A stretch of DNA of 64,000 bases from positions 1 through 64,000 of the forward strand of contig PLSV01000146.1 in NCBI GenBank assembly GCA_003165235.1. Reading direction: 5' to 3'. Positions 7,839 through 61,784 of this stretch are shown piece by piece. The stretch is from Syntrophobacteraceae bacterium (lineage in GTDB: Bacteria > Desulfobacterota > Syntrophobacteria > Syntrophobacterales > Syntrophobacteraceae). The notes under the pieces are model-generated. The model was not told where the DNA came from, searched no databases, and worked only from the letters and a program-made list of their open reading frames with translations. Positions within the stretch are counted from its first letter, which is position 1; each line of letters starts with the position of its first letter. Position numbers and translations under genes: made by a program.

Positions 7839-8744
7839 ATGAAAGAGAGCAAATGTAGAGTTTTGATTTGCTCCCTGAGTTTGCTTCTGGCCTTTTCGGC
7901 CCCTGCACTCGGACAGCAAAAACAGGAAAAGTCGAAACAACCCGTAGCGACTCTGTCAGAAGATCAGATGAAGGCCCGGGCGGCTGCGGCCAGGCGCGAA
8001 CTATTAAACCAGGAGTTATTCGCGGCCGTTGACTCGGAGGCCAGCGGGGCGGTGCGCAAGATGCTCACCAGGGGCGCTGATGTGAACGGCAGGGACCGTG
8101 ATGGAATGACCCCCCTTATGCACGCCGCTCTCCAAGGCAGTTCGGAGTTGATCCAATTGCTGCTCGACAAGGGCGCTGTGGTTAACCTGACGGACACTTT
8201 CGGAGTGACTGCCCTCATGCAGGCAGCTTGGGCAGGCCACACGGAAGTGCTCGAGACGCTCATGACGCAAGGGGCGGATGTGAACCTCCAGAGCGTCCTG
8301 GAAGTCCCCAGGCTCAAGAAAGCGGGAGTCAACGCCCTTATGGGCGCCAGCATGAACGGCAACCTCGAAGTGGTGCGGCTCCTTCTTGCCGGTGACGCCC
8401 GATTAAACCAGCAGGACGCTCAAGGACAGACCGCTCTTATGCACGCTTCCCAGGCAGGCTTCTCTCAAATTGCCGACCTTTTGCTTTCCAAGGGCGCCAA
8501 TACGGAAATAAAGGACCAGTTCGGCAGAACAGCCCTTACGGTTGCAACGATTTACGGCCACTACGATGTGGTTTGCCTTCTGGTCGCGGCGGGCGCAGAC
8601 GTCTACACCAAAGACATTCACAATATGAAGCCCATTGTTTACGCGTCCGCGCTGGACCGTGGGGAAATCTACAAATACCTTCAGGCGGCAATGGCAAGGA
8701 GACCCTCATCCACCCAGGCGGCAGGCTTCAGGCGCTCTCCTTAG
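7839..8744 (+). CDS. Secreted ankyrin-repeat protein
   Basis: Signal peptide MKESKCRVLICSLSLLLAFSAPALGQ; repeated DGMTPLMHAALQGSSELIQLLLDKGA units. Confidence 0.9.
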   Translation: MKESKCRVLICSLSLLLAFSAPALGQQKQEKSKQPVATLSEDQMKARAAAARRELLNQELFAAVDSEASGAVRKMLTRGADVNGRDRDGMTPLMHAALQGSSELIQLLLDKGAVVNLTDTFGVTALMQAAWAGHTEVLETLMTQGADVNLQSVLEVPRLKKAGVNALMGASMNGNLEVVRLLLAGDARLNQQDAQGQTALMHASQAGFSQIADLLLSKGANTEIKDQFGRTALTVATIYGHYDVVCLLVAAGADVYTKDIHNMKPIVYASALDRGEIYKYLQAAMARRPSSTQAAGFRRSP

Positions 8745-8854
8745 AAGGCATCACGCGAACGCCCGACGCGCCAACGACAGACACCTGAGGGGATGCCTTC
8801 CGGGCTATGCATCACCGGTCGCACAGGGTGGTTTATAAGTGTATCATACGAGGA
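8745..8854 (+). repeat. Dispersed repeat element, copy A
   Basis: AAGGCATCACGCGAACGCCC...GATGCCTTCCGGGCTATGCATCAC...CAGGGTGG...TATCATACGAGGA, shared with four other loci in the window. Confidence 0.8.
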
Positions 8855-8863
8855 CATTTGCAA

Positions 8864-9937
8864 ATGGCCGCTTGGAAGCCGGGTACTGACAGAAGACAAA
8901 CGGAGCGATTCAAAGTCGCATGGGCCGGTACGCTCACCTGTCTTTGCCTGAACCATGAAGAAAATGTTGAGGTCACAGTTACGGAGGTCTCGACAAGAGG
9001 TGCGCGGCTGGAATTAAAAACTCTGAAAGTCGGCCCTTATCATATAGTGATTGGAAGCGAATCGAGCCGGTTTACTTTGAAGGTCAGCCTGCCCGAGGCC
9101 GCCCTATGGGCGCCGGTCAGAATAGTTTGGTACAGCACTGACCAGGAGAAGGATTCGTTTAATTTAGGTGTGATGTTTCTGCACGCATCCGAGGAGCACC
9201 GAGCGGCGATCCAAAGGCTACTGGCGGATGTGCGCCGGGAAACATCCCGCTCAGAGGAGAGGAAAACGGGATTGTATCGAGCTAAAGATTTTCGGGCCAT
9301 AATTCTGGATGTTGACGGCACGCTGCTGGACACTCTGCAGGATGTGGCCGATTCAATGAACAGCACGCTTCGCCATTTCGGATTTCCCGTCCACGAATTA
9401 GAAAAGTACAAGTATTTCATCGGGGAAGGCATGGAGACCTTTGTTAGGCGCTCCCTTCCGGATTCGGCCAAAACAGACCCCCGGCTGATATCCCAATGCG
9501 TCGAAATGATGCGGCAGACCTATGAGCGCAACTGGAATGTGAAAAGCCGGCCCTATCCGGGGATTCCGGAGCTTCTTGACGCGTTGACCGCGCGCGGCTT
9601 GAAGATGGCCGTGCTTTCCAACAAGCCCCATGAGTTGACGCTGAGGACGATAGAGGGGCTTCTGCCCATCTGGCGCTTCGAGGTCGTCATGGGCGAGAGC
9701 CCGTCCGTCCCTCGCAAGCCCGACCCTTCCGCAGCACTGGAAATTGCCAACCGGCTCGGAGTTGAGCCCGCCGGCTTCCTCTACCTCGGCGATACGGCCA
9801 CTGACATGAAAACCGCAAATGCCGCAGGGATGTACGCGGTCGGCGCGCTATGGGGATTTCGAAACGCCGAAGAGCTTATAGCAAGCGGCGCCAAAAAGCT
9901 CATCGCAAAGCCCGCCGAACTGCTCGAACTGCTTTGA
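8864..9937 (+). CDS. PilZ-domain / HAD-family phosphatase (phosphoglycolate phosphatase-like) fusion
   Basis: N-terminal RRQTERF...VTEVSTRGARLEL (PilZ RxxxR and xxSxxG, with E in place of D/N). C-terminal AIILDVDGTLLDT...VLSNKPHE...PRKPDP...YLGDTATDMKTANAAG (HAD). Confidence 0.88.
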   Translation: MAAWKPGTDRRQTERFKVAWAGTLTCLCLNHEENVEVTVTEVSTRGARLELKTLKVGPYHIVIGSESSRFTLKVSLPEAALWAPVRIVWYSTDQEKDSFNLGVMFLHASEEHRAAIQRLLADVRRETSRSEERKTGLYRAKDFRAIILDVDGTLLDTLQDVADSMNSTLRHFGFPVHELEKYKYFIGEGMETFVRRSLPDSAKTDPRLISQCVEMMRQTYERNWNVKSRPYPGIPELLDALTARGLKMAVLSNKPHELTLRTIEGLLPIWRFEVVMGESPSVPRKPDPSAALEIANRLGVEPAGFLYLGDTATDMKTANAAGMYAVGALWGFRNAEELIASGAKKLIAKPAELLELL

Positions 9938-16429: not shown

Positions 16430-16557
16430 TCCTCGTATGATAGATTTATATAGCACCCAACCGAAAAAAATAACCCCTCTACGTCGTGCGAGCGCGTAGC
16501 GGGCAGGCCGACCGCGCGATACGTCTATCTGGCGCGTTAGGCGTTCGCGGGAGGCCT
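16430..16557 (-). repeat. Dispersed repeat element, copy D (upstream of ndk)
   Basis: Reverse complement CCTCCCGCGAACGCCTAACGCGCCAGATAGACGT...ACGTAGAGGGGTTATTTTTTTCGG...TATAAATCTATCATACGAGGA, near-identical to copy E. Confidence 0.85.
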
Positions 16558-35279: not shown

Positions 35280-35424
35280 AAGGCATCCCGCGAACGCCCA
35301 AAGCGGATGACAGGCGCAGGCTGCGGTCGCCTTCCGGGCTATGCATCACGCGTCGATAAGGAGTGCCTGCGAGAGCATGTGGCCAAATGATAATTGTGTT
35401 GTTAACAATTCTGTCATACGAAGA
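35280..35424 (+). repeat. Dispersed repeat element, copy B
   Basis: AAGGCATCCCGCGAACGCCCAAAGCGGATGAC...CCTTCCGGGCTATGCATCACGCGTCGATAAGG...GTTAACAATTCTGTCATACGAAGA. Confidence 0.82.
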
Positions 35425-35432
35425 CTTATAAC

Positions 35433-35609
35433 ATGACAATCCCGGAAGAAAAAAAGAATATACTTTTAGACGACCTTTTGCGCGCCCGGTTGGAAGGGGC
35501 CTTCGTGTCTCCATGTGGAACCGAAGGAGCCATTTGGGAAGATTTTCCCGAGTCGCCCGAAGAATATCCTTCTGAGCTGACTCTGGAACCTTTGCCGGAA
35601 GCAGAATGA
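35433..35609 (+). CDS. Small acidic hypothetical protein (58 aa)
   Basis: MTIPEEKKNILLDDLLRARLEGAFVSPCGTEGAIWEDFPESPEEYPSELTLEPLPEAE; starts 9 nt after repeat copy B. Not in the supplied ORF list. Confidence 0.5.
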   Translation: MTIPEEKKNILLDDLLRARLEGAFVSPCGTEGAIWEDFPESPEEYPSELTLEPLPEAE

Positions 35610-47500: not shown

Positions 47501-47692
47501 AAGGCGCCCCGTGAACGCCCAAAACGGATGACTTCCGCCTAAAGGCGGTAAGAGGAATGACCAGATTAAGACCAGATTAGACCCATCGAGGGGATGCCTT
47601 CCGGGCTATGCATCACACGTCGATAAGGGATGCCCGCGAGGGCATTTCACCATATGATCGTTTAGTGTAGTTAACAAGTCTGTCATACGAGG
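47501..47692 (+). repeat. Dispersed repeat element, copy C (longest)
   Basis: AAGGCGCCCCGTGAACGCCCAAAACGGATGAC...GATGCCTTCCGGGCTATGCATCACACGTCGATAAGG...GTTAACAAGTCTGTCATACGAGG. Confidence 0.82.
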
Positions 47693-47841
47693 TTGCGGCG
47701 TTCCCTTTCTTAAACAGGGACAGAGGGGGCCTGCATCCCTTTTGAGAAAGGGCCCGGCAGTCACCTGAGGTGGGTGCGGGGAAAAGCGAAGCAATATTTT
47801 GACGTGTCAAGGCTTAATAACAAAGGGAGGGAACTACAGTC

Positions 47842-50724
47842 ATGAACTCCTTAATGATAAAGAAATCGGTCATCGCCGCCATTATTTTTGGAATTGCGTC
47901 ATTGGCCGGCTTATCGATCTGCGTCAGGTCTCCCTTTGCTGTTGGTAATGCCGTTATGGAGGAAAACGACAGGGTGGTCCTTCATGGAACCGTTCCTCCC
48001 AAGGCCAGGCCTGAGTTCGATGTGGGGCCGACCGACCCTTCACTGCCGATGAAGCGAACGATCCTTCTTCTGAAGATCGCCCCGGAAAAGCAGGCGGAAC
48101 TGGATCGGCTCGTTGCCGAGCAGCAGGACCCTTCTTCCCCGAACTTTCACCGCTGGCTGACTCCGGAGGACTTCGGCAAGAGGTTCGGACGAACTCCGGA
48201 AGAGATCGCCACTGTAAAGGGCTGGCTTATCACCCATGGGTTTACCATCGATGAGACGGCCAAAGGCGGCACGTGGATAAACTTCTCAGGCACGGCGGCC
48301 GATGTCGATCTCGCCTTTCACGCGAACATGCACGATTACCAGGTCGATGGCCTGCTTCGTCATGCCAACTCAACCGATCCCTCAATCCCGCGTGCGCTCT
48401 CCGATCTGGTGGCCGGGCCGGTTTCGCTGCACAATTTCCCTCACAAGACGACGCACACCCCGCCCCGGCACATGCCGGAGACAACGCCGCAGCCGGGCTA
48501 CACTGAGTCAGACGGCAGCCACGATCTCGCTCCGGGCGACTTCGCGGCCATTTACGATGTCAACAGTGTCTACAACATGGGCTATGACGGCGCCGGGGTG
48601 ACTATCGCCGTCGTGGAACGGACCCACCCGGACGCCGCCAAGTGGAACGTTTTCCGCTCCACCTTTGGACTGCCTTACAATCCCCCGGTGGTCAAAGTGA
48701 ACGGAACTGACCCCGGCGACCTTGGGCCTGATGAAGACGCAGAGGCCGACCTCGACGTCGAATGGGCCGGCGCAGTGGCGACGGGCGCCACCATCAATTT
48801 CGTCACCTCTGCGTCAACTAATTCTGCTGACGGCGTTGATCTGTCTTCCCAATATATCGTCGACAACAACCTGGCGTCCATTATGAGCAATTGTTTCGAA
48901 ACATGCGAGCCGGATTTGGGCACGACCTGGAGCGCCTTCTATTACAACTTATGGGAGCAGGCGGCCTCTCAGGGGATAACGGTGTTTGTCGTCTCCGGAG
49001 ACTCCGGCGCCTACGCTTGCACCAACGCAAACGGTGTGCCTGGAGGGGGCAAAGCGGTGAACGGTCTTGCTTCAACTCCCTTCAATATCGCTGTGGGCGG
49101 CACAACATTAAGCGATGCATCAGCTTACTGGAGTACGGATAATAGCGCGTACGGCGTCTCGGCCCTGAACTACATGCCCGAAGCGGCCTGGAACAACTGG
49201 GGCCAATACGGTCTATATTTGGCCTCCGGAGGGGGGCCCTCCGTCCTTTGGCCCAAACCGGCGTGGCAGCGCTGCCCGGGCGTTCCCAACAATGGCGCCC
49301 GCAACCTGCCCGACGTCTCTCTCGATGCAGACCCCTACACCGGCTACAGGATTTACACCTGCACTAATTCTACCGGGATCTGCAGTTCTAATTCATGGAG
49401 CGTTATCGGCGGGACTTCGGCCGCATCACCTTCTCTGGCGAGCCTCATGGCGTTGATCGTGCAAAGTACGGGAGGTCAGCGGCAGGGTAACTTCAACAGC
49501 GCTTTCTACCAGCTCGGCAATGCTCAGTACAGCGGGGCAAGCGGCGCAATCGCCGTCTTCCACGACATAACCTCGGGCGGCAACGGCTTTGGCGCGAGCC
49601 TCCCCGGTTATTCCTGCACAGCTCACTACGACCTTGTAACGGGCCTGGGTTCGGTAGATGCCGCCAACCTCCTCCTGGCGTTTCAGGAAGGAGGGTCCCT
49701 GACCGTCACGATCGGTCCGGCTGCAGCCGTAAGCGCCGGCGCGATGTGGAACGTAGACGGCGGAACATGGCAGGCAAACGGTGCAACCATCTCGGGCCTG
49801 GCCGCCGGCCGGCACACAGTAGCTTTCAATAACGTCACCGGCTGGAACACCCCTGCCAGTCAAACGGTCGTTATCCCCCAATATGGGCCGATAAAGGCTA
49901 GCGCAACGTATCTCCTTGCGCCTCCAACGGTCGAATCATTTCTGATAGACAGCGGGGCGCCAAGCACTCCGAGCCGAACAGTTACGCTTAACAACACGGT
50001 GACCGGATTCCCTGCCTACTATATGGCCAGCCAGTCTTCCGCTTTCTCTGGAGCGGCATGGCAACCATACTCCACGGCCCCTTCCTTTACCCTGAGCGCC
50101 GCAAACGGACAGAAGACCGTATATTTCAAGGTGAAAAACGCAGGGGGCGTCTCGGCAAAAGCGAGCGCTTCAATTGTCCTGGCCCAGTTGCCGGTGGTTA
50201 CTTCTTTCAAGATCGACGCAGGGGCTTCAACTACGATTAATCCTATTGTAACGCTTAACAATACGGCGACCATATCGCCAACTCAGTTCATGGCCAGCGA
50301 AGACCCCAGCTTCAATGGGGCATCCTGGCTGCCATATTCTGCTACTCCCAAATTTACGTTGAGCCCCGGGGGCGGCTCCAAGACAGTTTATTTTCAAGTG
50401 CAAAACAGCGCCGGACAATCGCCGGCAGTAAGCGATACAATTCAACTCATCGTCCCGCCCATCCTACAAACATTTCAGATCAATGGCGGGGTCACTCCCA
50501 CTTCGAGTCGAACGGTTACGCTTAACAACACGACAACAGGAGGGACTCCCACCTATTATATGGCCAGCCAGTCTTCCACTTTCGCTGGAGCGGCATGGAA
50601 ACCATACTCCACGGCCCCTTCCTTTACCCTTAGTGCTGCAAAGGGGAACAAGACCGCCTATTTCAAGGCGAAAAATGCCGCTGGGGCCTCGAATGTGTTG
50701 AATGCCGGCATAACGCTTGACTGA
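47842..50724 (+). CDS. Secreted S53 (sedolisin/kumamolisin-like) peptidase, copy 1, with C-terminal beta repeats
   Basis: Signal peptide, pro-kumamolisin-type propeptide, EADLDVEWAGAVATGA, VSGDSGAY, GGTSAASPS, DLVTGLGSVDAANLL; 1 PEGA-like and 3 chitobiase/Fn3-like repeats. Confidence 0.92.
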   Translation: MNSLMIKKSVIAAIIFGIASLAGLSICVRSPFAVGNAVMEENDRVVLHGTVPPKARPEFDVGPTDPSLPMKRTILLLKIAPEKQAELDRLVAEQQDPSSPNFHRWLTPEDFGKRFGRTPEEIATVKGWLITHGFTIDETAKGGTWINFSGTAADVDLAFHANMHDYQVDGLLRHANSTDPSIPRALSDLVAGPVSLHNFPHKTTHTPPRHMPETTPQPGYTESDGSHDLAPGDFAAIYDVNSVYNMGYDGAGVTIAVVERTHPDAAKWNVFRSTFGLPYNPPVVKVNGTDPGDLGPDEDAEADLDVEWAGAVATGATINFVTSASTNSADGVDLSSQYIVDNNLASIMSNCFETCEPDLGTTWSAFYYNLWEQAASQGITVFVVSGDSGAYACTNANGVPGGGKAVNGLASTPFNIAVGGTTLSDASAYWSTDNSAYGVSALNYMPEAAWNNWGQYGLYLASGGGPSVLWPKPAWQRCPGVPNNGARNLPDVSLDADPYTGYRIYTCTNSTGICSSNSWSVIGGTSAASPSLASLMALIVQSTGGQRQGNFNSAFYQLGNAQYSGASGAIAVFHDITSGGNGFGASLPGYSCTAHYDLVTGLGSVDAANLLLAFQEGGSLTVTIGPAAAVSAGAMWNVDGGTWQANGATISGLAAGRHTVAFNNVTGWNTPASQTVVIPQYGPIKASATYLLAPPTVESFLIDSGAPSTPSRTVTLNNTVTGFPAYYMASQSSAFSGAAWQPYSTAPSFTLSAANGQKTVYFKVKNAGGVSAKASASIVLAQLPVVTSFKIDAGASTTINPIVTLNNTATISPTQFMASEDPSFNGASWLPYSATPKFTLSPGGGSKTVYFQVQNSAGQSPAVSDTIQLIVPPILQTFQINGGVTPTSSRTVTLNNTTTGGTPTYYMASQSSTFAGAAWKPYSTAPSFTLSAAKGNKTAYFKAKNAAGASNVLNAGITLD

Positions 50725-51072
50725 ATCGGGACTGTTGCCGATGGGAGGGAAAAACCATCAATGCTCACGTGCGAAGTTGCCAACTTGAGATGGCGGCGCC
50801 ACTCACTTTCCAGATGCCGTTTGAAATCATAGCTCCTGTTTTCGATGGCTGCCATGGATCGCCCGAACTGCTTCTTGCCAAATCCATACGATTTGATTAT
50901 GCATGCTATGCAAAATGTTACGGCATTCCCTCTCTTAAACAGGGACGGGGACCTGCATCCCTTTTGAGAAAGCATCCGGCAGTTCCCTGAGGCAAGGCAC
51001 GGGGAAATAGGGAAATAATATAAATAAAATCTGACCGCTGACTGTTTCTTTGTAAATAAAGGACGGACCGTA

Positions 51073-54000
51073 GTGATAAAAAAATTGATCATCGCTGTCA
51101 TTATTTTTGGAATTGCGTCATTGGCCTGCTTATCAATCGGGATCAGGTCTCATTTCGCTGTTGATAATGCCGTTATGGAGGGAAATGACAGGGTGGTCAT
51201 TCCTGGAACCGTCCATCCAAATGCCAGGGCTGAGTTTGACGTGGGGGCTACCGACCCTGCACTGCCGATGGAGCGAACGATCCTTCTTTTGAAGATCGCC
51301 CCCGAAAAGCAGGCAGTACTGGATCGGCTCGTAGCCGAACAACATGACCCTTCTTCCCCGAACTTTCACCACTGGCTGACTCCGGAGGAATTCGGCAAGA
51401 GGTTCGGACGAACTCCGGAAGAAATCGCCATCGTAAAGGGCTGGCTTATCACCCATGGGTTTACAATCGATGAGACGGCAAAAGGCGGCGCCTGGATAAA
51501 CTTCTCGGGTGCGGCGGCCAATGTCGATCGCGCCTTTCACGCGAACATGCACGATTACCAGGTTGCGGGTCATCTTCGTCATGCCAACTCCACCGATATC
51601 TCTATTCCGAGTGCGCTCGCCGGCCTGGTGGCCGGGCCGGTTTCGCTGCACAATTTTCCTCACCATACTGCGGCAAAGCCGCGGCCCGCTTACACGGAGT
51701 CAGACGGCACCCACGATCTCGCCCCGGGCGACTTCGCGGCAATTTACGATGTCAACGGCATCTACAACATGGGCTTTGACGGCGCCGGGGTGACTATCGC
51801 CATCGTCGAACGGACTCACCCGGACGCCGACAAGTGGAACTTATTCCGCTCCGTATTTGGACTCCCTTACAACCCCCCCGTCGTCACAGTGAACGGACCT
51901 GACCCAGGCGATCTGGGGTCTGATGAAGACCTGGAGGCCGACCTCGACGCCGAATGGGCCGGCGCAGTGGCGACGGGGGCTACCATCAATTTCGTCACCT
52001 CTGCGTCAACTAATGCTACTGACGGCGCTGATCTGTCTGCCGAATATATCGTCGACAACAACGTGGCGCCCATTATGAGCGATTGTTTTGCACTATGCGA
52101 ACGGGATTTGCTCCAGAGCGGGAGCACTTTCTATTACAACTTATGGGAGCAGGCCGTTTCTCAGGGAATAACTGTGTTTGTCGCCTCCGGAGACTCCGGC
52201 GCCTACGGTTGCATAGACCGAAACAATAATCCTGTAGCGCCTAAAGCGGTGAACGGTATTGGCTCAACCCCCTTCAATGTCGCTGTGGGCGGCACTGCAT
52301 TAAGCGATTCACCAGCATACTGGAATACGGTTAACAGCGCGGACGGCGTCTCGGCCCTGGGGTACATGCCAGATGTCGGCTACGAGGTGGCCTGGAACAA
52401 CTATGACCAGCGAGACGGCTGGCTCTATTATGCCTCCGGAGGGGGGCCGTCCGCCTATTGGAGCAAACCGGCGTGGCAGGTGGCCCCGGGCGTCCCGAAC
52501 GACGGCGCCCGCGACCTGCCCGACGTTTCTCTCAATGCAGACCTCGACGTCGGCTACAGGGTTTACACGTGCAGCAATGCCAGCGGTACTACCTGCCCGT
52601 CCAATTCGTGGTGGATTATCGGCGGGACTTCACTCGGCACACCTTCTTTGGCAGGCATCCTGGCGTTGATAGTGCAAAGTGCGGGAGGTGAACGGCAGGG
52701 TAACGTCAACCCCGTTTTATACCAACTGGGCAACGCTCAGTATACCGGGGCAAGCGGCGCAAGCCCCGTTTTCCACGACATCACCTCGGGCAACAACGGC
52801 TTTGTCGGGAATGGAACGAACCTTCCCGGCTATTCCTGCACACAGTACTACGACCTTGTGACGGGCCTGGGTTCGGTAAATGCTACCAACCTCTTTCTGG
52901 CGTTTCAGGAAGGAGGGTCCCTGACGGTAACGATCAGTCCGGCGGCAGCCGTTAGCGCCGGCGCTCAATGGAACGTCGATGGCGGGACATGGAAAAATAG
53001 CGGGGCCACGGTCGGGGGTCTTTCAGTTGGTTCACATACAGTAAATTTCAATACTATTACCGGTTGGACCAGTCCTACAAGTCAGGCTGTGAATATTGTA
53101 AAAGGGCAAACCACATCGGCCGGCGGTCTCTACGTACAACAGACACAGACAGGCTCGCTCAAGGTGACGATTACTCCCGCGGCAGCGGTTAGCGCAGGCG
53201 CACAGTGGAATGTAGACAATGGGGCATGGAATGCGAGCGGGGGGACTGTATCCGGCCTTAGCGCGGGATCGCACACGGTAAATTTTGAAAGTATTCCGGG
53301 CTGGAACACTCCTGCCAGTCAAACGGTTATTATCTCCTATGGACAGACAAAAACGGCGAGCGGAAAGTATGTCCTTACAACTCCAACGGTCGAATCATTT
53401 CTGATAGACAGCGGGGCGCCAAGCACTCCGAGCCGAACAGTTACGCTTAACAATACCGTAAACGGATTTCCTGCCTACTATACGGCCAGCCAGTCTTCGA
53501 CTTTCTCTGGAGCGGCATGGCAACCATACTCCACGGCCCCTTCCTTTACACTGAGCGCCGCTAACGGACAGAAGACCGTATATTTCAAGGTAAAAAACGC
53601 AGGGGGCGTATCGGCAAAAGCGAGCGCTTCAATTGTCCTGGCCCAGTTGCCGGTGGTTACTTCTTTCAAGATCGACGCAGGGGCTTCAACAACGATTAAT
53701 CCAATTGTAACGCTTAACAATACGGCGACCATATCGCCAACGCAGTTCATGGCCAGCGAAGACCCCAGCTTCAATGGGGCATCCTGGCTGCCATATTCTG
53801 CCGCTCCCAAATTTACGTTGAGCCCCGGGGGCGGCTCCAAGACAGTTTATTTTCAAGTGCAAAACAGCGCCGGACAATCGCAGGTAGTAAACGCCAGTAT
53901 TCAACTCATCGCCAAACCTGCGTTGACGTCATTTCAGATAGATAACGGCGCAGGGACCACTTCGAGTAGAACAGTCACGCTGAACAACACGGCGGCCGGG

Positions 54001-54180
54001 TCTCCCACGCACTATATGGCCAGTCAGTCTTCCATTTTCTCCGGAGCGGTATGGAAACAGTACTCCACGGCCCCTTCCTTTACACTGAGCGCTGCAATGG
54101 GGAGCAAGACCGTCTATTTCAAAGTGAACAATCCGGCTGGGGTCTCGAATGTGATGAATGCCGGCATCACGCTTGAGTAA
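51073..54180 (+). CDS. Secreted S53 peptidase, copy 2
   Basis: Same architecture; GGTSLGTPS; 2 PEGA-like and 3 Fn3-like repeats; GTG start. Confidence 0.92.
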   Translation: MIKKLIIAVIIFGIASLACLSIGIRSHFAVDNAVMEGNDRVVIPGTVHPNARAEFDVGATDPALPMERTILLLKIAPEKQAVLDRLVAEQHDPSSPNFHHWLTPEEFGKRFGRTPEEIAIVKGWLITHGFTIDETAKGGAWINFSGAAANVDRAFHANMHDYQVAGHLRHANSTDISIPSALAGLVAGPVSLHNFPHHTAAKPRPAYTESDGTHDLAPGDFAAIYDVNGIYNMGFDGAGVTIAIVERTHPDADKWNLFRSVFGLPYNPPVVTVNGPDPGDLGSDEDLEADLDAEWAGAVATGATINFVTSASTNATDGADLSAEYIVDNNVAPIMSDCFALCERDLLQSGSTFYYNLWEQAVSQGITVFVASGDSGAYGCIDRNNNPVAPKAVNGIGSTPFNVAVGGTALSDSPAYWNTVNSADGVSALGYMPDVGYEVAWNNYDQRDGWLYYASGGGPSAYWSKPAWQVAPGVPNDGARDLPDVSLNADLDVGYRVYTCSNASGTTCPSNSWWIIGGTSLGTPSLAGILALIVQSAGGERQGNVNPVLYQLGNAQYTGASGASPVFHDITSGNNGFVGNGTNLPGYSCTQYYDLVTGLGSVNATNLFLAFQEGGSLTVTISPAAAVSAGAQWNVDGGTWKNSGATVGGLSVGSHTVNFNTITGWTSPTSQAVNIVKGQTTSAGGLYVQQTQTGSLKVTITPAAAVSAGAQWNVDNGAWNASGGTVSGLSAGSHTVNFESIPGWNTPASQTVIISYGQTKTASGKYVLTTPTVESFLIDSGAPSTPSRTVTLNNTVNGFPAYYTASQSSTFSGAAWQPYSTAPSFTLSAANGQKTVYFKVKNAGGVSAKASASIVLAQLPVVTSFKIDAGASTTINPIVTLNNTATISPTQFMASEDPSFNGASWLPYSAAPKFTLSPGGGSKTVYFQVQNSAGQSQVVNASIQLIAKPALTSFQIDNGAGTTSSRTVTLNNTAAGSPTHYMASQSSIFSGAVWKQYSTAPSFTLSAAMGSKTVYFKVNNPAGVSNVMNAGITLE

Positions 54181-54262
54181 ATTGGGACTGTCCAAATCCA
54201 GGGGAAAAGGGAAGCAACATTTTTAAGCATCACGGTTTCATAACAAAGGGGGGACTACAGTC

Positions 54263-57200
54263 ATGAACTCCTTAATGATGAAAAGATCGGTCATCGCCGC
54301 CGCTATTTTTGGAATTGCGTTATTGGCGGGCTTATCGATCGGCGTCAGGTCTCCATTTGCTGTTGATAACGCCGTCATGGAGGGAAACGACAGGGTGGTC
54401 CTTAATGGGACCGTCCCTCCCAAGGCCAGGCCTGAGGCCGACGTGGGGCCAACCGACCCTTCGCTGCCGATGCAGCGAACGATCCTCCTTTTGAAGATCG
54501 CCCCTGAAAAACAGGCGAAACTGGATCGGCTCGTTGCCGAACAGCAGGACCCTTCTTCCCCGAACTTTCACCAATGGCTCACTCCGGAGGAATTCGGCAG
54601 CAGGTTCGGACGAACTCCGGAAGAGATCGCCACCGTAAAAGGCTGGCTTATCACCCAGGGGTTTACCATCGATGAGACGGCAAAAGGCGGCACGTGGATA
54701 AACTTCTCAGGTACGGCGGCCGATGTCGATCTCGCTTTTCACGCGAACATGCACGATTACCAGGTTGATGGCAAGGTTCGTCATGCCAACTCCACCGATA
54801 TCTCAATCCCCCGTGCGCTCGCCGATCTGGTAGCCGGGCCGGTTACGCTGCACAATTTTCCTCACAATCCGGCGCACACCCCGCCCCGGCCCATGCCGGA
54901 GGCAAAGCCGCAGCCGGCTTACACTGAGGGAAACGGCAGCCACGATCTCGCTCCTGGCGACTTCGCGGCAATTTACGATGTCAACGGGATCTACAACATG
55001 GGCTACGACGGCGCCGGGGTGACTATCGCCATCGTCGAACGGACCCACCCGGACGCCGCCAAGTGGAACTTCTTCCGCTCCACCTTTGGACTGCCTTACA
55101 ATCCCCCCGTGGTCACAGTGAACGGACCTGACCCCGGCGATCTGGGGTCTGATGAAGACTTGGAGGCCGACCTCGACGCCGAATGGTCCGGCGCAGTAGC
55201 GACGGGCGCCACCATCAATTTCGTCACCTCTAAGACAACTTATTCAACTGACGGCATTGCTCTGTCTGCCCAATATATCGTCGACAAAAATTTGGCGCCC
55301 ATTATGAGCGATTGTTTTGAGAACTGCGAGCAGGATTTGGGCCCGACCTGGAGCGCCTTCTATTACAACTTATGGGAGCAGGCAGCCTCTCAGGGGATCA
55401 CGGTCTTTGTCGCCGCCGGAGACGCCGGCGCCGACAGTTGCGTCAACGCAAACCTTGTGCCTGTGGGGGGCAAAGCGGTGAACGGCATCGCCTCGACTCC
55501 CTTCAATATCGCTGTGGGCGGCACAACGTTAAGCAATGCATCACTTTACTGGAACCCGGTTAACAGGACGTACGGCGTCTCGGCCCTGGGCTACATGCCC
55601 GAGGTGGGCTGGAACAACTATAACCAGCAAAACCAGTGGGTCTTTTTTGCCTCTGGAGGGGGGGCCTCCTCCCTTTGGAGCAAACCGGCGTGGCAGGTGT
55701 GCCCGGGCGTTCCGACCGACGGCCACCGCGACATGCCCGACGTCTCTCTCAATGCAGACCTCGACGTCGGCTACAGGGTTTGGACCTGCACCAATGGCAA
55801 CGGTCTCTGCAGGTCCAATTCATGGTGGACTATCGGCGGGACCTCGTGCGGATCACCTGCTCTCGCAGGCATCATGGCGTTGATAGTGCAAAGCACGGGA
55901 GGTGAACGGCAGGGTAACGTCAACCCCGTTTTATACCAACTGGGCAACGCTCAGTATACCGGGGCAAGCGGCGCAAGCGCCGTTTTCCACGACATCACCT
56001 CGGGCAACAACGGTTTTGTCGGGGATGGGGTAAACCTTCCCGGCTATTCCTGCACACCCTACTACGACCTTGTAACGGGCCTGGGTTCAGTAAATGCCGC
56101 CAACCTCCTCCTGGCGTTTTGGGGGGAAGGGGGGGCCCTGACGGTGACGATCAGTCCCGCGGCAGCGGTCAGCGCAGGCGCGCAATGGAACGTCGATGGC
56201 GGGATCTGGCAAAATAGCGGGGCCACGGTCGAGGGTCTTTTAGTTGGTTCACATACGGTAAATTTCAATACTATTACCGGCTGGAGCGCACCGGCAAGTC
56301 AGACTGTGAATATAATAAACGAGCAGACCACATTGGCTGGCGGTCTCTACGCACAACAGACACTGACAGGCTCGCTCAAGGTGACGATTACTCCCCCGGC
56401 AGCGGTCAGCGCAGGCGCACAGTGGAATGTAGACAATGGGGCATGGAATGCGAGCGGGGGGACTGTATCCGGCCTTAGCGTGGGATCGCACACGATAAAT
56501 TTTGAAAGTATTCCGGGCTGGAACACCCCTGCCAGTCAAACGGTTATTATCTCCTATGGACAGACAAAAACGGCGAGCGCAACGTATGTCCTGGCGCCTC
56601 CAACGGTTGAATCGTTTCTGATAGATAACGGCGCAGGGACCACTCCTGGCCGAACGGTTACGCTTAACAATACCGTAAACGGATTTCCTGCCTACTATAC
56701 GGCCAGCCAGTCTTCCACTTTCGACGGCGCCGAATGGAAGCCGTACTCCACAGCCCCCTCTTTTACCCTGAGCGGCGCAAACGGACCAAAGACCGTATAC
56801 TTCAAGGTGAAAAACGCCGGGGGTGTTTCGGCAAAGGCGAGGGCTTCAATTGTCCTGGCGCAGTTGCCGGCGGTCACCTCTTTCAGGATCGACGCAAGGG
56901 TTGTAACCACGATTAATCAGACTGTAACGCTTAATAATACGGCGACCTTATCGCCAACGCAGTTCATGGCCAGCGAAGACCCTAGCTTCAATGGGGCATC
57001 CTGGCTGCCATATTCTACTGCTCCCAAATTCATATTGAGTCCGGGAAGCGGGACCAAGACAGTCTATTTTCAAGTGCAAAACAGCGCCGGACAATCGCCG
57101 GTCGTAAGCGATACAATTCAGCTCATCGTCAAACCCGCTGTGACATCATTTCAGATAGACAACGGCGCAGGGACCACTTCGAGTAGAACAGTCACGCTGA

Positions 57201-57397
57201 ACAACACGGCGACCGGGTCTCCCGCGTACTATATGGCCAGTCAGTCTCCCACTTTCTATGGAGCGGTATGGAAACCGTACTCCACGGCCCCTTCCTTTGC
57301 TCTGAGCGCTGCAACGGGGAACAAGACCGTCTATTTCAAGGTGAGAAATGCCGCTGGGACCTCGTATGTGGCGTATGCCGGCATCACGCTTCAGTGA
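54263..57397 (+). CDS. Secreted S53 peptidase, copy 3
   Basis: Same architecture; GGTSCGSPA; 2 PEGA-like and 3 Fn3-like repeats. Confidence 0.92.
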   Translation: MNSLMMKRSVIAAAIFGIALLAGLSIGVRSPFAVDNAVMEGNDRVVLNGTVPPKARPEADVGPTDPSLPMQRTILLLKIAPEKQAKLDRLVAEQQDPSSPNFHQWLTPEEFGSRFGRTPEEIATVKGWLITQGFTIDETAKGGTWINFSGTAADVDLAFHANMHDYQVDGKVRHANSTDISIPRALADLVAGPVTLHNFPHNPAHTPPRPMPEAKPQPAYTEGNGSHDLAPGDFAAIYDVNGIYNMGYDGAGVTIAIVERTHPDAAKWNFFRSTFGLPYNPPVVTVNGPDPGDLGSDEDLEADLDAEWSGAVATGATINFVTSKTTYSTDGIALSAQYIVDKNLAPIMSDCFENCEQDLGPTWSAFYYNLWEQAASQGITVFVAAGDAGADSCVNANLVPVGGKAVNGIASTPFNIAVGGTTLSNASLYWNPVNRTYGVSALGYMPEVGWNNYNQQNQWVFFASGGGASSLWSKPAWQVCPGVPTDGHRDMPDVSLNADLDVGYRVWTCTNGNGLCRSNSWWTIGGTSCGSPALAGIMALIVQSTGGERQGNVNPVLYQLGNAQYTGASGASAVFHDITSGNNGFVGDGVNLPGYSCTPYYDLVTGLGSVNAANLLLAFWGEGGALTVTISPAAAVSAGAQWNVDGGIWQNSGATVEGLLVGSHTVNFNTITGWSAPASQTVNIINEQTTLAGGLYAQQTLTGSLKVTITPPAAVSAGAQWNVDNGAWNASGGTVSGLSVGSHTINFESIPGWNTPASQTVIISYGQTKTASATYVLAPPTVESFLIDNGAGTTPGRTVTLNNTVNGFPAYYTASQSSTFDGAEWKPYSTAPSFTLSGANGPKTVYFKVKNAGGVSAKARASIVLAQLPAVTSFRIDARVVTTINQTVTLNNTATLSPTQFMASEDPSFNGASWLPYSTAPKFILSPGSGTKTVYFQVQNSAGQSPVVSDTIQLIVKPAVTSFQIDNGAGTTSSRTVTLNNTATGSPAYYMASQSPTFYGAVWKPYSTAPSFALSAATGNKTVYFKVRNAAGTSYVAYAGITLQ

Positions 57398-57478
57398 ATT
57401 GGGACTGTCCAAATCCAGGGGAAAAGGAATCAACATTCGAATCATCACGGTTTCATAACAAGGGGGGGAACTACAGCC

Positions 57479-60400
57479 ATGAACTCCTTAATAACGAAAA
57501 GATTGGTCATCGCCGCCACTATTTTTGGAATTGCGTCATTAGCCGGCTTATCGATCGGGATCAGGTCTCCCTTCGCTCTTGGTAACGCAGTTATCGAGGA
57601 AAACGACAGGGTGGTCCTTAATGGAACCGTCCATCCCAATGCCAGGGCTGAGTTCGACGTGGGGCCAACCGACCCTTCACTGCCGATGAAGCGGACGATC
57701 CTTGTTCTTAAGATCGCCCCTGAGAAACAGGCGGAACTGGATCGGCTCGTTGCCGAACAGCAGGACTCTGCTTCCCCGAACTATCACCGCTGGCTCACTC
57801 CGGAGGAATTCGGCAACAGGTTCGGACGAAGTCCGGAAGAGATCGCCACTGTAAAAGGCTGGCTTATCACCAATGGGTTTACAATCGATGAGACGGCAAA
57901 AAGCGGCGCCTGGATAAACTTCTCGGGTACGGCGGCCGATGTCAATCTCGCCTTTCACGCGAGCATGCACGATTACCAGGTCAATGGTCATCTTCGTCAT
58001 GCCAACTCCACCGATATCTCAATCCCGAGTGCGCTTGCCGACCTGGTGGCCGGGCCGGTTTCGCTGCACAATTTTCCTCACCATCCGGCGGCAAAGCCGC
58101 GGCCAGGTTACACTGAATCAAACGGTACCCACGATCTCGCTCCGGGCGACTTTGCGGTGATTTACGATGTCAACAATATCTACAACATGGGCTATGACGG
58201 CGCCGGAGTGACTATCGCCGTCACGGAACTGACCTACCAGACCTCCGCCATCACCAAGTGGAACTACTTCCGCTCCCACTTTGGACTCCCTTACAATCCC
58301 CCCGTCGTCACAGTGAACGGACCTGCCCCCGGGGATCAGGGGCCCAATGATGATGAAGAGGCCGACATTGACGTCGAATGGTCCGGCGCAGTAGCGACGG
58401 GCGCCACCATCAATTTCGTCACCTCTGCGAGCACTAATTCCACTTACGGCATCGATCTGTCTGCCCAATATATCGTCGATAACAACTCGGCGCCCATTAT
58501 CAGCGATAGTTACATATTCTGCGAACATGATATGGGCTCGACCGTGAGATCTTTCTATTACAACTTATGGCGGCAGGCCGTCTCTCAGGGGATAACGGTG
58601 TTTGTCGCCTCCGGAGACAACGGCGCCTACAGTTGCATCGACCAAAACAATAATCCTGTAGCGCCTAAAGCGGTGAACGGTTATGCCTCAACTCCCTTCA
58701 ATACCGCTGTGGGCGGCACTGCGTTAAGCGATTCATCAGAATACTGGAATCCGGTTAACAGCGCGGACGGCGTCTCTGCCCTGGGCTACATGCCGGAGGT
58801 GGGCTGGAACAACTATGACCAGCAAGACGGCTGGCTCTATTATGCCTCCGCAGGTGGGCCCTCCGCCTATTGGCCCAAACCCGCGTGGCAGGTGGCCCCG
58901 GGCGTTCCGACCGACGGCCACCGCGACCTGCCCGACGTTTCTCTCAATGCAGACTGCGACGTCGGCTACAGGATTTACACCTGCACCAATGATACCGGTG
59001 CGTGCAATTCCGATTCATTGAGGGTTTTCTGCGGGACTTCACTCGGCACACCTTCTTTGGCAGGCATCCTGGCGTTGATCGAGCAAAGTGCGGGAGGTGA
59101 GCGGCAGGGTAACATCAACAGCGTTTTATACCAACTGGGCAACGCTCAGTACACCGGGGCAAGCGGCGCAAGCCCCGTTTTCCACGACATCACCTCGGGC
59201 AACAACGGCTTTGTCGGGAATGGAACGAACCTTCCCGGCTATTCCTGCACACAGTACTACGACCTTGTGACGGGCCTGGGCACCGTAGATGCTACCTATC
59301 TCTTTCTGGCGTTTCAACAAGGAGGGTCCCTGACGGTAACCATCAGTCCTGCGGGGGCCGTCAGCGCAGGAGCGCAATGGAACGTCGATGGCGGGACCTG
59401 GCAAAATAGCGGGGCCACAGTCCGGGGTCTTTCCGTTGGTTTACATACGGTAAATTTCAATACCATTTCCGGTTGGACCAGTCCCGCAAGCCAGACCGTA
59501 AATATTGTAAAAGGGCAAACCACATCGGCCGGCGGTCTCTACGTACAACAGTCACAGACAGGCTCGCTCAAGGTAACGATCAGTCCTGCGGGGGCCGTTA
59601 GCGCAGGAGCGCAATGGAACGTCGATGGCGGGACCTGGCAAAATAGCGGGGCCACGGTCGGGGGTCTTTCAGTTGGTTCACATACGGTAAATTTCAATAC
59701 TATTGCCGGTTGGACCAGTCCTGCAAGCCAGAGCGTAAATATCGTAAATGGGCAGACCACATCGGCCGGGGGTCTATACGTACAACAGACACAGACAGGC
59801 TCGCTCACGGTAACGATCAGCCCTGCGGGGGCAGTTAGCGCAGGCGCGCAGTGGAACGTCGATGGCGGGACCTGGCAGAACAGCGGGGCCACAGTTGGAA
59901 ATCTTTCAGTTGGTTCACATGCGGTAAATTTCAATGCTATTACCGGCTGGACCAATCCCGCAAGCCAGACCGTAAATATCGTAAATGGGCAGACCGCATC
60001 GGCTGGCGGTCTCTACGTCCAACAGACACAGACAGGCTCGCTCAAGGTCACGATTATTCCCGCGGCAGCGGTTAACGCAGGCGCTATGTGGAATGTAGAC
60101 AATGGGGCATGGAATGCGAGCGGGGGGACTGTATCCGGCCTTAGCGCGGGATCGCACACGGTAAATTTTGAAAGTATTGCGGGCTGGAACACCCCTGCCA
60201 GTCAAACGGTTATTATCTCCTATGGACAGACAAAAACGGCGAGCGCAACGTATGTCCTGGCGCCTCCAACGGTTGAATCGTTTCTTATAGATAACGGCGC
60301 AGGGACCACTCCGAGCCGAACAGTTACGCTTAACAATACGGTAAGCGGATTTCCTGCCTACTATACGGCCAGCCAGTCTTCCACTTTCTATGGAGCGGTA

Positions 60401-61063
60401 TGGAAACCATATTCCACGGCCCCTCCCTTTACCCTGAGCGGCCCAAACGGACCAAAGACCGTATACTTCAAGGTGAAAAACGCCGGGGGCGTTTCGGCAA
60501 AGGCGAGCGCTTCAATTGTCCTGGCCCAGTTGCCGGCGGTCACCTCTTTCAGAATCGACGCAGGGGCTGTAACCACGATTAATCAGACGGTAACGCTTAA
60601 CAATACTGCGACCATATCGCCAACGCAGTTCATGGCCAGCGAAGCCCCCAGTTTCAACGGGGCATCCTGGCTGCCATATTCTACTGCTCCCAAATTCATA
60701 TTGAGTCCGGGAAGCGGGACCAAGACAGTTTATTTTCAAGTGCGAAACAGCGCCGGACAATCGGCGGCAGTAAGCGATACAATTCAGTTTATCGTCAAAC
60801 CAGCGGTGACATCATTCCAGATAAACAACGGCGCAGGGACCACTTCGAGTAGAACCGTCACGCTGAACAACACGGCGACCGGGTCTCCCGCGTTATATTT
60901 GGCCAGTCAGTCTCCCACTTTCTATGGAGTGGTATGGAAACCGTACTCCACGGCCCCTTCCTTTACCCTGAGCGCTGCAAAAGGGAACAAGACCGTCTAT
61001 TTCAAGGTGAGAAATGCCGCTGGGGCCTCGTATGTGGCGTATGCCGGCATCACGCTTGAGTGA
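57479..61063 (+). CDS. Secreted S53 peptidase, copy 4
   Basis: Same architecture; CGTSLGTPS; 4 PEGA-like and 3 Fn3-like repeats. Confidence 0.92.
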   Translation: MNSLITKRLVIAATIFGIASLAGLSIGIRSPFALGNAVIEENDRVVLNGTVHPNARAEFDVGPTDPSLPMKRTILVLKIAPEKQAELDRLVAEQQDSASPNYHRWLTPEEFGNRFGRSPEEIATVKGWLITNGFTIDETAKSGAWINFSGTAADVNLAFHASMHDYQVNGHLRHANSTDISIPSALADLVAGPVSLHNFPHHPAAKPRPGYTESNGTHDLAPGDFAVIYDVNNIYNMGYDGAGVTIAVTELTYQTSAITKWNYFRSHFGLPYNPPVVTVNGPAPGDQGPNDDEEADIDVEWSGAVATGATINFVTSASTNSTYGIDLSAQYIVDNNSAPIISDSYIFCEHDMGSTVRSFYYNLWRQAVSQGITVFVASGDNGAYSCIDQNNNPVAPKAVNGYASTPFNTAVGGTALSDSSEYWNPVNSADGVSALGYMPEVGWNNYDQQDGWLYYASAGGPSAYWPKPAWQVAPGVPTDGHRDLPDVSLNADCDVGYRIYTCTNDTGACNSDSLRVFCGTSLGTPSLAGILALIEQSAGGERQGNINSVLYQLGNAQYTGASGASPVFHDITSGNNGFVGNGTNLPGYSCTQYYDLVTGLGTVDATYLFLAFQQGGSLTVTISPAGAVSAGAQWNVDGGTWQNSGATVRGLSVGLHTVNFNTISGWTSPASQTVNIVKGQTTSAGGLYVQQSQTGSLKVTISPAGAVSAGAQWNVDGGTWQNSGATVGGLSVGSHTVNFNTIAGWTSPASQSVNIVNGQTTSAGGLYVQQTQTGSLTVTISPAGAVSAGAQWNVDGGTWQNSGATVGNLSVGSHAVNFNAITGWTNPASQTVNIVNGQTASAGGLYVQQTQTGSLKVTIIPAAAVNAGAMWNVDNGAWNASGGTVSGLSAGSHTVNFESIAGWNTPASQTVIISYGQTKTASATYVLAPPTVESFLIDNGAGTTPSRTVTLNNTVSGFPAYYTASQSSTFYGAVWKPYSTAPPFTLSGPNGPKTVYFKVKNAGGVSAKASASIVLAQLPAVTSFRIDAGAVTTINQTVTLNNTATISPTQFMASEAPSFNGASWLPYSTAPKFILSPGSGTKTVYFQVRNSAGQSAAVSDTIQFIVKPAVTSFQINNGAGTTSSRTVTLNNTATGSPALYLASQSPTFYGVVWKPYSTAPSFTLSAAKGNKTVYFKVRNAAGASYVAYAGITLE
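59324..60271 (+). repeat. Four tandem 237-bp (79-aa) PEGA-like repeat units inside S53 copy 4
   Basis: Unit starts at 59324, 59561, 59798, 60035 (constant 237-nt period): GSLxVTIxPAxAVSAGAQWNVDGGTWQNSGATVxGLSVGSHTVNFNxIxGWTSPASQTVNIVNGQTTSAGGLYVQQTQT. Confidence 0.92.
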
Positions 61064-61656: not shown

Positions 61657-61784
61657 TCCTCGTATGATAGACTTATATAGCACCCTACCGAAAAAAATAA
61701 CCACCCTGCGTCGTGTGAGCGCGTAGCGGGCAGGCCGACCGCGCGCCACGTCTACCTGGCGCGTTGGGCGTTTGCGGGAGGCAT
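61657..61784 (-). repeat. Dispersed repeat element, copy E (upstream of maoC-like gene)
   Basis: Reverse complement CCTCCCGCAAACGCCCAACGCGCCAGGTAGACGT...CACACGACGCAGGGTGGTTATTTTTTTCGG...TATAAGTCTATCATACGAGGA. Confidence 0.85.

Follow-up and report, generated by a model that had tools for sequence, protein, structure and literature searches.

A short repeat in one Syntrophobacteraceae species that probably inserts at Shine-Dalgarno sequences and spares them

Introduction

When the end of a repeated sequence coincides with the ribosome-binding sites of unrelated genes, has the repeat brought those sites with it, or has it come to rest on sites that were already there? The question is raised by positions 8838-8866 of the window analyzed here (one stretch of 64,000 nucleotides from a draft Syntrophobacteraceae genome), which run up to the start of a PilZ-HAD gene and have counterparts at four other places in the window. 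An earlier note on this DNA leaned towards the first answer, proposing that the repeat supplies a Shine-Dalgarno (SD) sequence, and perhaps a -10 hexamer, to the gene behind it, or else that it is a shared cis-regulatory leader. We argue for the second. The feature probably forms the right end of a mobile element that is non-autonomous, has multiplied in a single species, and inserts at SD sequences and spares them.

Results

The Repeat and Its Copies

Positions 8838-8866 form the 3' end of a structured non-coding repeat that extends over ~105-190 nt and of which the source genome (G000; a draft of 7.07 Mb in 424 contigs with an estimated contamination of 8.9%, the window lying on contig C43) holds about 117-119 copies. 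The census was made by pattern and BLAST searches of that genome. With up to two mismatches allowed, AAGTCTRTCATACGAGG gave 119 matches against 2 for the reversed control, and the repeat is therefore not a product of chance. Of 117 places that we inspected directly, a few are chance matches; three were flagged as lying inside a called gene, and these comprise two chance matches lacking the 5' module and one place (L056) near a contig edge.

The copies fall into subtypes A (~124 nt), B (~140 nt) and C (~105 nt), together with longer ones that carry nested repeats. Common to the subtypes are a 5' module, C(C/A)TCCCGCGAACGCCCAAC.., and a 3' module, ..AAGTCTRTCATACGAGG, whose terminus holds TATAAG/TATCAT-like hexamers; between them lies GGCCTG or GCCTT and, after it, a CTAYGC motif. 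RNAalifold returned almost no structure from a mixed-subtype alignment, because the subtypes are offset by one alignment column. The two strands of a candidate pseudoknot, GATAGAC in the inner arm and GTCTATC at the terminus, are conserved, but covariation between them is absent. Rfam gave no match in the window except two tRNAs, and none at E ≤ 1 for two element copies.

Two further sequences are found within copies. A second repeat, CTTCCGCCTAAAGGCGGTAAGAGGAATGACCAGATTA, which resembles another short mobile palindrome, is nested in several of them (47532-47579 in the window, and L045, L079, L080, L084 and L098), and in about a quarter of all copies the middle is replaced by a cassette, CCCCGTCTCTGGTCATGGACAGTGATCATAGACAGGTCATGAAGGGATAGCG... 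(L009, L013, L020, L036, L061, L064 and others), as if families had exchanged parts.

Table 1. The five element copies of the window, their ends, and the target and guide of copy 1.
Feature	Position	Strand	Remarks
Target tetranucleotide AAGG, left flank of copy 1	8745..8748	+	Sequence; left-flank consensus over 99 copies
Element copy 1, short C-type, 105 nt	8749..8853	+	Ends CATACGAGG; PilZ-HAD start 10 nt on, at 8864
Internal guide CCTT of copy 1	8796..8799	+	Complementary to the AAGG left flank
3' end of copy 1, TATCATACGAGGA	8842..8854	+	
Element copy 2, A-type, 124 nt	16431..16554	-	Left flank TAGG (16558-16555); before ndk, start 16419
3' end of copy 2, TATCATACGAGGA	16430..16442	-	
Element copy 3, B-type, 140 nt	35284..35423	+	Left flank AAGG (35280-35283); 3' end variant GAAG
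3' end of copy 3, TGTCATACGAAGA	35412..35424	+	
Element copy 4, B-type, 188 nt	47505..47692	+	Left flank AAGG; nested repeat at ~47532-47579
3' end of copy 4, TGTCATACGAGGT	47681..47693	+	
Element copy 5, A-type, 124 nt	61658..61781	-	Left flank CATG (61785-61782); before maoC, start 61641
3' end of copy 5, TATCATACGAGGA	61657..61669	-	

The five copies of the window are listed in Table 1. Pfam confirmed the genes behind copies 1, 2 and 5 as PilZ plus HAD, NDK and MaoC. Behind copy 3, a 58-aa open reading frame at 35433 has no Pfam match and no support from our gene caller, which places the next gene 427 nt away, and it should thus not be counted as a gene; the next called start after copy 4 lies 161 nt downstream. 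Upstream of copy 1 is an ankyrin-repeat gene (Pfam), called at 7881-8744, whose stop codon, TAG (8742-8744), is directly adjoined by the AAGG target, which presumably served the PilZ-HAD gene as its ancestral SD. From this arrangement, the insertion of copy 1 probably split two genes of one operon.

Near copy 5, we note that the acyl-CoA dehydrogenase and maoC genes of one relative (G004) are nearly adjacent and element-free. The source genome has a second maoC, 91% identical and also element-free, in another neighborhood (contig C253:6761-7212, L137); we rejected this paralogue as an empty site because the difference in neighborhood makes it uninformative. Between copies 4 and 5, at 47842-61063, four tandem paralogous genes of ~3 kb (960-1194 aa) contain internal repeats, and the translation of one of them resembles, by eye, a secreted peptidase whose C-terminal modules are repeated.

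Position Relative to Start Codons

Gene starts were called with a home-made dicodon caller that uses no SD information. A called start lies 5-17 nt downstream on the same strand in 33 of 114 copies (29%), against 2.2±1.5 expected, and at most 7 in 200 draws, when copies were placed at random in the intergenic sequence of the same loci. The presence of an AGGA end at SD distance, on which the earlier note had built, is thus both correct and enriched. Its count of four copies in five before a start codon holds less well: the spacings given for the PilZ-HAD, ndk and maoC genes are right, the 58-aa frame drops out, and genome-wide most copies are not at start codons. At least one further copy (L141) lies at SD distance once the start is corrected by orthologues. 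ATG triplets peak 9 nt past the terminal GAGG, and 79 copies are followed by a gene on their own strand and 30 by one on the opposite strand, where 56±5.6 same-strand copies were expected. Several copies sit in convergent or non-leader contexts. Housekeeping genes with the element at their ribosome-binding site include ndk, pfkA, gap, pgk, lepA, rplI, secF and bioD; at L177 (contig C343) gap and pgk are neighbors, each with its own copy at the SD.

Flank and Internal Guide

Among 99 copies compared, most have (A/C)AGG as their left flank: AGG is present in 87, and position -1 is G in 98. Their right end reads GAGG in 83. Deviations on the left and on the right are independent of each other, which argues against a target-site duplication. 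The flank does vary together with a site inside the element. In 77 of 87 copies, base -4 of the flank and the last base of an internal CCTN form a Watson-Crick pair (shuffled pairings gave a mean of 39 and a maximum of 54): C occurs with CCTG in 39, A with CCTT in 36 and G with CCTC in 2. Another pair of covarying bases is internal to the element. The CCTN is on the 3' side of a stem, ~45-60 nt from the left end in short copies, and we infer that its pairing with the flank drives target choice.

The four-base motif alone cannot explain the preference for SDs, since only 4.9% of intergenic (A/C)AGG sites, or 9.5% if an A follows, are at an SD position, compared with 29% of copies. The excess could possibly reflect better survival of insertions at SDs, an additional element of recognition, or the exposure of leaders while they are transcribed.

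A flank that pairs with an internal guide also recalls P1 of group I introns, and an intron-like element acting at the RNA level, by reverse splicing into mRNA and reverse transcription, would explain the preference for SDs and for the sense strand. The stem topology, in which the flank and the 5' end pair with the guide, speaks for such an element, as do the SD excess beyond the motif and the 79-to-30 sense bias near genes. However, the repeat measures just ~105-190 nt and matches no Rfam intron family, group I and group II included, and no clear sense bias is seen in copies remote from start codons; we consider this explanation quite unlikely.

Empty Sites in Related Genomes

Orthologues of 40 genes located behind copies were sought in five relatives from the same genus, and the leaders of about 23, plus those of ndk and maoC, were read. 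In these element-free relatives the leaders are ordinary and nearly all have an SD of their own; that of ndk, for example, reads ..AAGAGGGAAGTCTA-ATG. When the element is removed from the source genome and its flanks are joined, the result aligns to the relatives' empty sites, best at secF, L039, L097, bioD, gap, pfpI, rplI and a tRNA-tig site. With the insertion point marked by a slash, secF reads ..TTTAGTTCAAAACCATAAGG/AAAAAGA-ATG in the source genome and ..TTTAGTTCGGGGCTACATAAGG/AAAGCGA-ATG in a relative; the corresponding pairs are ..CGCATCAGGAAGG/ATTTTTTCGTAC-ATG and ..CCTATCAGAAAGG/ATTTTTGGGTAG-ATG at L097, and ..TTTACGTAACGGCAAGG/AAGGACAA-ATG and ..TTTACGTGACAGCGAGG/AAAGAAGC-ATG at bioD. 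An example away from any SD, a copy directly behind a tRNA gene, gives ..CTCTCGCACCAGG/AAAGTGCGCC and, in a relative, CTCTCGCACCAGC/AAAGCGAGC.

The spacing between AGG and start codon, taken by hand from the alignments, is the same as in the relatives at 10 of 17 SD loci and within 1 nt at 13; it differs by 2-4 nt at pgk, ndk, n14 of L180 and lepA, where the alignments are weaker. An AGG stands at either junction, which leaves an uncertainty of up to 3 nt in the point of joining, and the AGG on the gene side may be native or may come from the element (at L161 and pgk, the right-hand AGG looks closer to the relatives). Whichever its origin, the gene already had an SD there beforehand. In these alignments the element has gone in at the NAGG of the native SD, which appears to be both target and preserved.

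Of the 10 loci that could be scored, 8 have empty sites that fit the guide. Relatives have AAGG at the CCTT loci L097, secF, L039 and L141; at least one relative has CAGG at the CCTG loci L078, L076 and rplI; and relatives have GAGG at the CCTC locus bioD, whose flank in the source genome is now AAGG. The two loci that do not match are pgk and ndk.

These leaders bear directly on the proposal that the element carries a promoter and an SD and is kept because it newly switches genes on. The 33 of 114 copies whose AGGA is at SD distance, and the TATAAG/TATCAT-like hexamers of the terminus, had suggested as much, and the earlier note had pointed to orthologues in relatives as the place to look for a different ribosome-binding site. 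However, element-free orthologues in the same genus already use their own SD at the same position and distance, which indicates that the element inserted at pre-existing SDs and did not install them on genes that had none. The majority of copies, moreover, are away from start codons. We rejected the promoter in particular: two copies scanned contain no sigma-70 -35/-10 pair, so the -10-like hexamers lack a partner there, and by eye the subtypes share no -35 hexamer. A promoter and SD cassette is therefore very unlikely, and insertion at existing SDs is the reading we carry forward.

Restriction to One Species

Searches allowing one mismatch found no copy in ten other genomes of the genus or in 28 further genomes of the order (38 in total), and 90 in the source genome. 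An exact 20-mer had no match in other species of a collection of ~85,000 species, which may omit the source genome itself. Phages and plasmids gave only short chance matches and no element copies; the single match in a viral contig is inside unrelated sequence, with no element around it. By the acyl-CoA dehydrogenase adjacent to maoC, the named relatives that come closest are uncultured Deltaproteobacteria and Syntrophobacteraceae bins, together with Desulforhabdus.

The shared-leader proposal, in the form of an ancestral riboswitch-like RNA that governs a regulon and was lost in relatives, would suit a structured, conserved sequence often found 5' of housekeeping genes, but its absence from all 38 other genomes, the lack of an Rfam match, the intact and ordinary leaders of the relatives, the copies in convergent or non-leader contexts and the fact that most copies are not at starts make it extremely improbable.

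Search for a Transposase

No element-linked transposase, and no autonomous or full-length copy with the same ends, was found in the source genome. Matches to PF01797 there are not flanked by the element, and solo 5' modules are truncated, diverged or due to chance. The genome does have an intact Y1/RAYT-like gene (contig C66:2514-2993, L223), with no element copies nearby and with a 74% identical orthologue in an element-free relative (G003). A lagging-strand bias is expected of IS200/IS605 elements; of the copies far from starts, 33 of 61 are on the strand of positive skew, GC skew serving as a proxy for replication direction in this draft genome.

Discussion

We suggest the following course of events. 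The element would insert beside NAGG without duplicating its target, the NAGG probably being recognized by base pairing with the guide CCTN on the 3' side of the terminal stem. SDs would be preferred or best-tolerated targets because they are rich in NAGG and close to start codons. With a right end of ...ATACGAGG and a left flank of NAGG, an AGG would stay at the SD position and the translation signals would be spared. The chemistry may be carried out in trans by a single-strand (HUH/Y1-like) transposase. A broader interpretation, which we hold to be evenly poised, is that the repeat belongs to a class of guide-directed mobile elements not described before, with subfamily guides CCTT, CCTG and CCTC, with SDs as evolved safe sites, and with ends that restore both SD and spacing.

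The targeting of safe sites has precedents, at tRNA genes, terminators and REP palindromes. Landing on the ribosome-binding sites of housekeeping genes with the SD spacing kept would, if true, be a new way of inserting harmlessly. DNA base-pair-guided target choice has reportedly been shown mainly by engineering IS608, and natural guide variants with matching empty sites would provide evidence for it from the field. There is also a caution here, in that a repeat abutting start codons is not necessarily a regulatory cassette.

Among known systems, classical MITEs differ in that our element makes no target-site duplication, left and right deviations not co-varying. Correia and ERIC sequences are small interspersed repeats of a similar type, to which BOX, RUP and SPRITE may be added (PMC3049150). 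The element resembles Correia, BOX, RUP and ERIC in its length of ~100-150 nt, its intergenic position, its nested insertions and its possible effects on neighboring transcripts. It differs from them in the absence of a target duplication and in its targeting of SDs with the spacing kept, which we did not find described in the open-access literature; within that literature, an SD-targeting family appears, as far as we found, not to have been described before.

REP and BIME sequences, with their TnpA-REP (RAYT), are likewise many, intergenic, structured and species-specific, and lie beside a tetranucleotide, and a RAYT-like gene is present in the source genome. However, TnpA-REP systems use GTAG (PMC8266576). 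A tetranucleotide of this type stands at the foot of a short palindrome in such systems, and their copies cluster near the RAYT gene, whereas our element has NAGG in its flank and no GTAG, is several times longer than REPs, and has no copies near the RAYT-like gene.

The closest likeness in mode of action is to the IS200/IS605 family and its non-autonomous derivatives (IS608, ISDra2 and PATE-like MITEs). IS608 inserts 3' of a tetranucleotide that is kept in the left flank and is recognized by a tetranucleotide guide within the transposon, 5' of the base of a subterminal hairpin (PMC5934647). In our element the guide is instead 3' of the stem and extends it, the target is an SD motif, there is no obvious right-end hairpin, and no cognate transposase or full-length copy was found. 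We do not file the element in the family because its guide is on the other side of the stem, neither a linked transposase nor a full-length copy was found, and no strand bias was evident by the GC-skew proxy in this draft genome. By comparison of the two, however, it appears to work as IS200/IS605 elements do: the target is retained in the left flank without duplication and is complementary to an internal guide, and retargeting follows a change of guide, which in our element takes the form of the natural variants CCTT, CCTG and CCTC.
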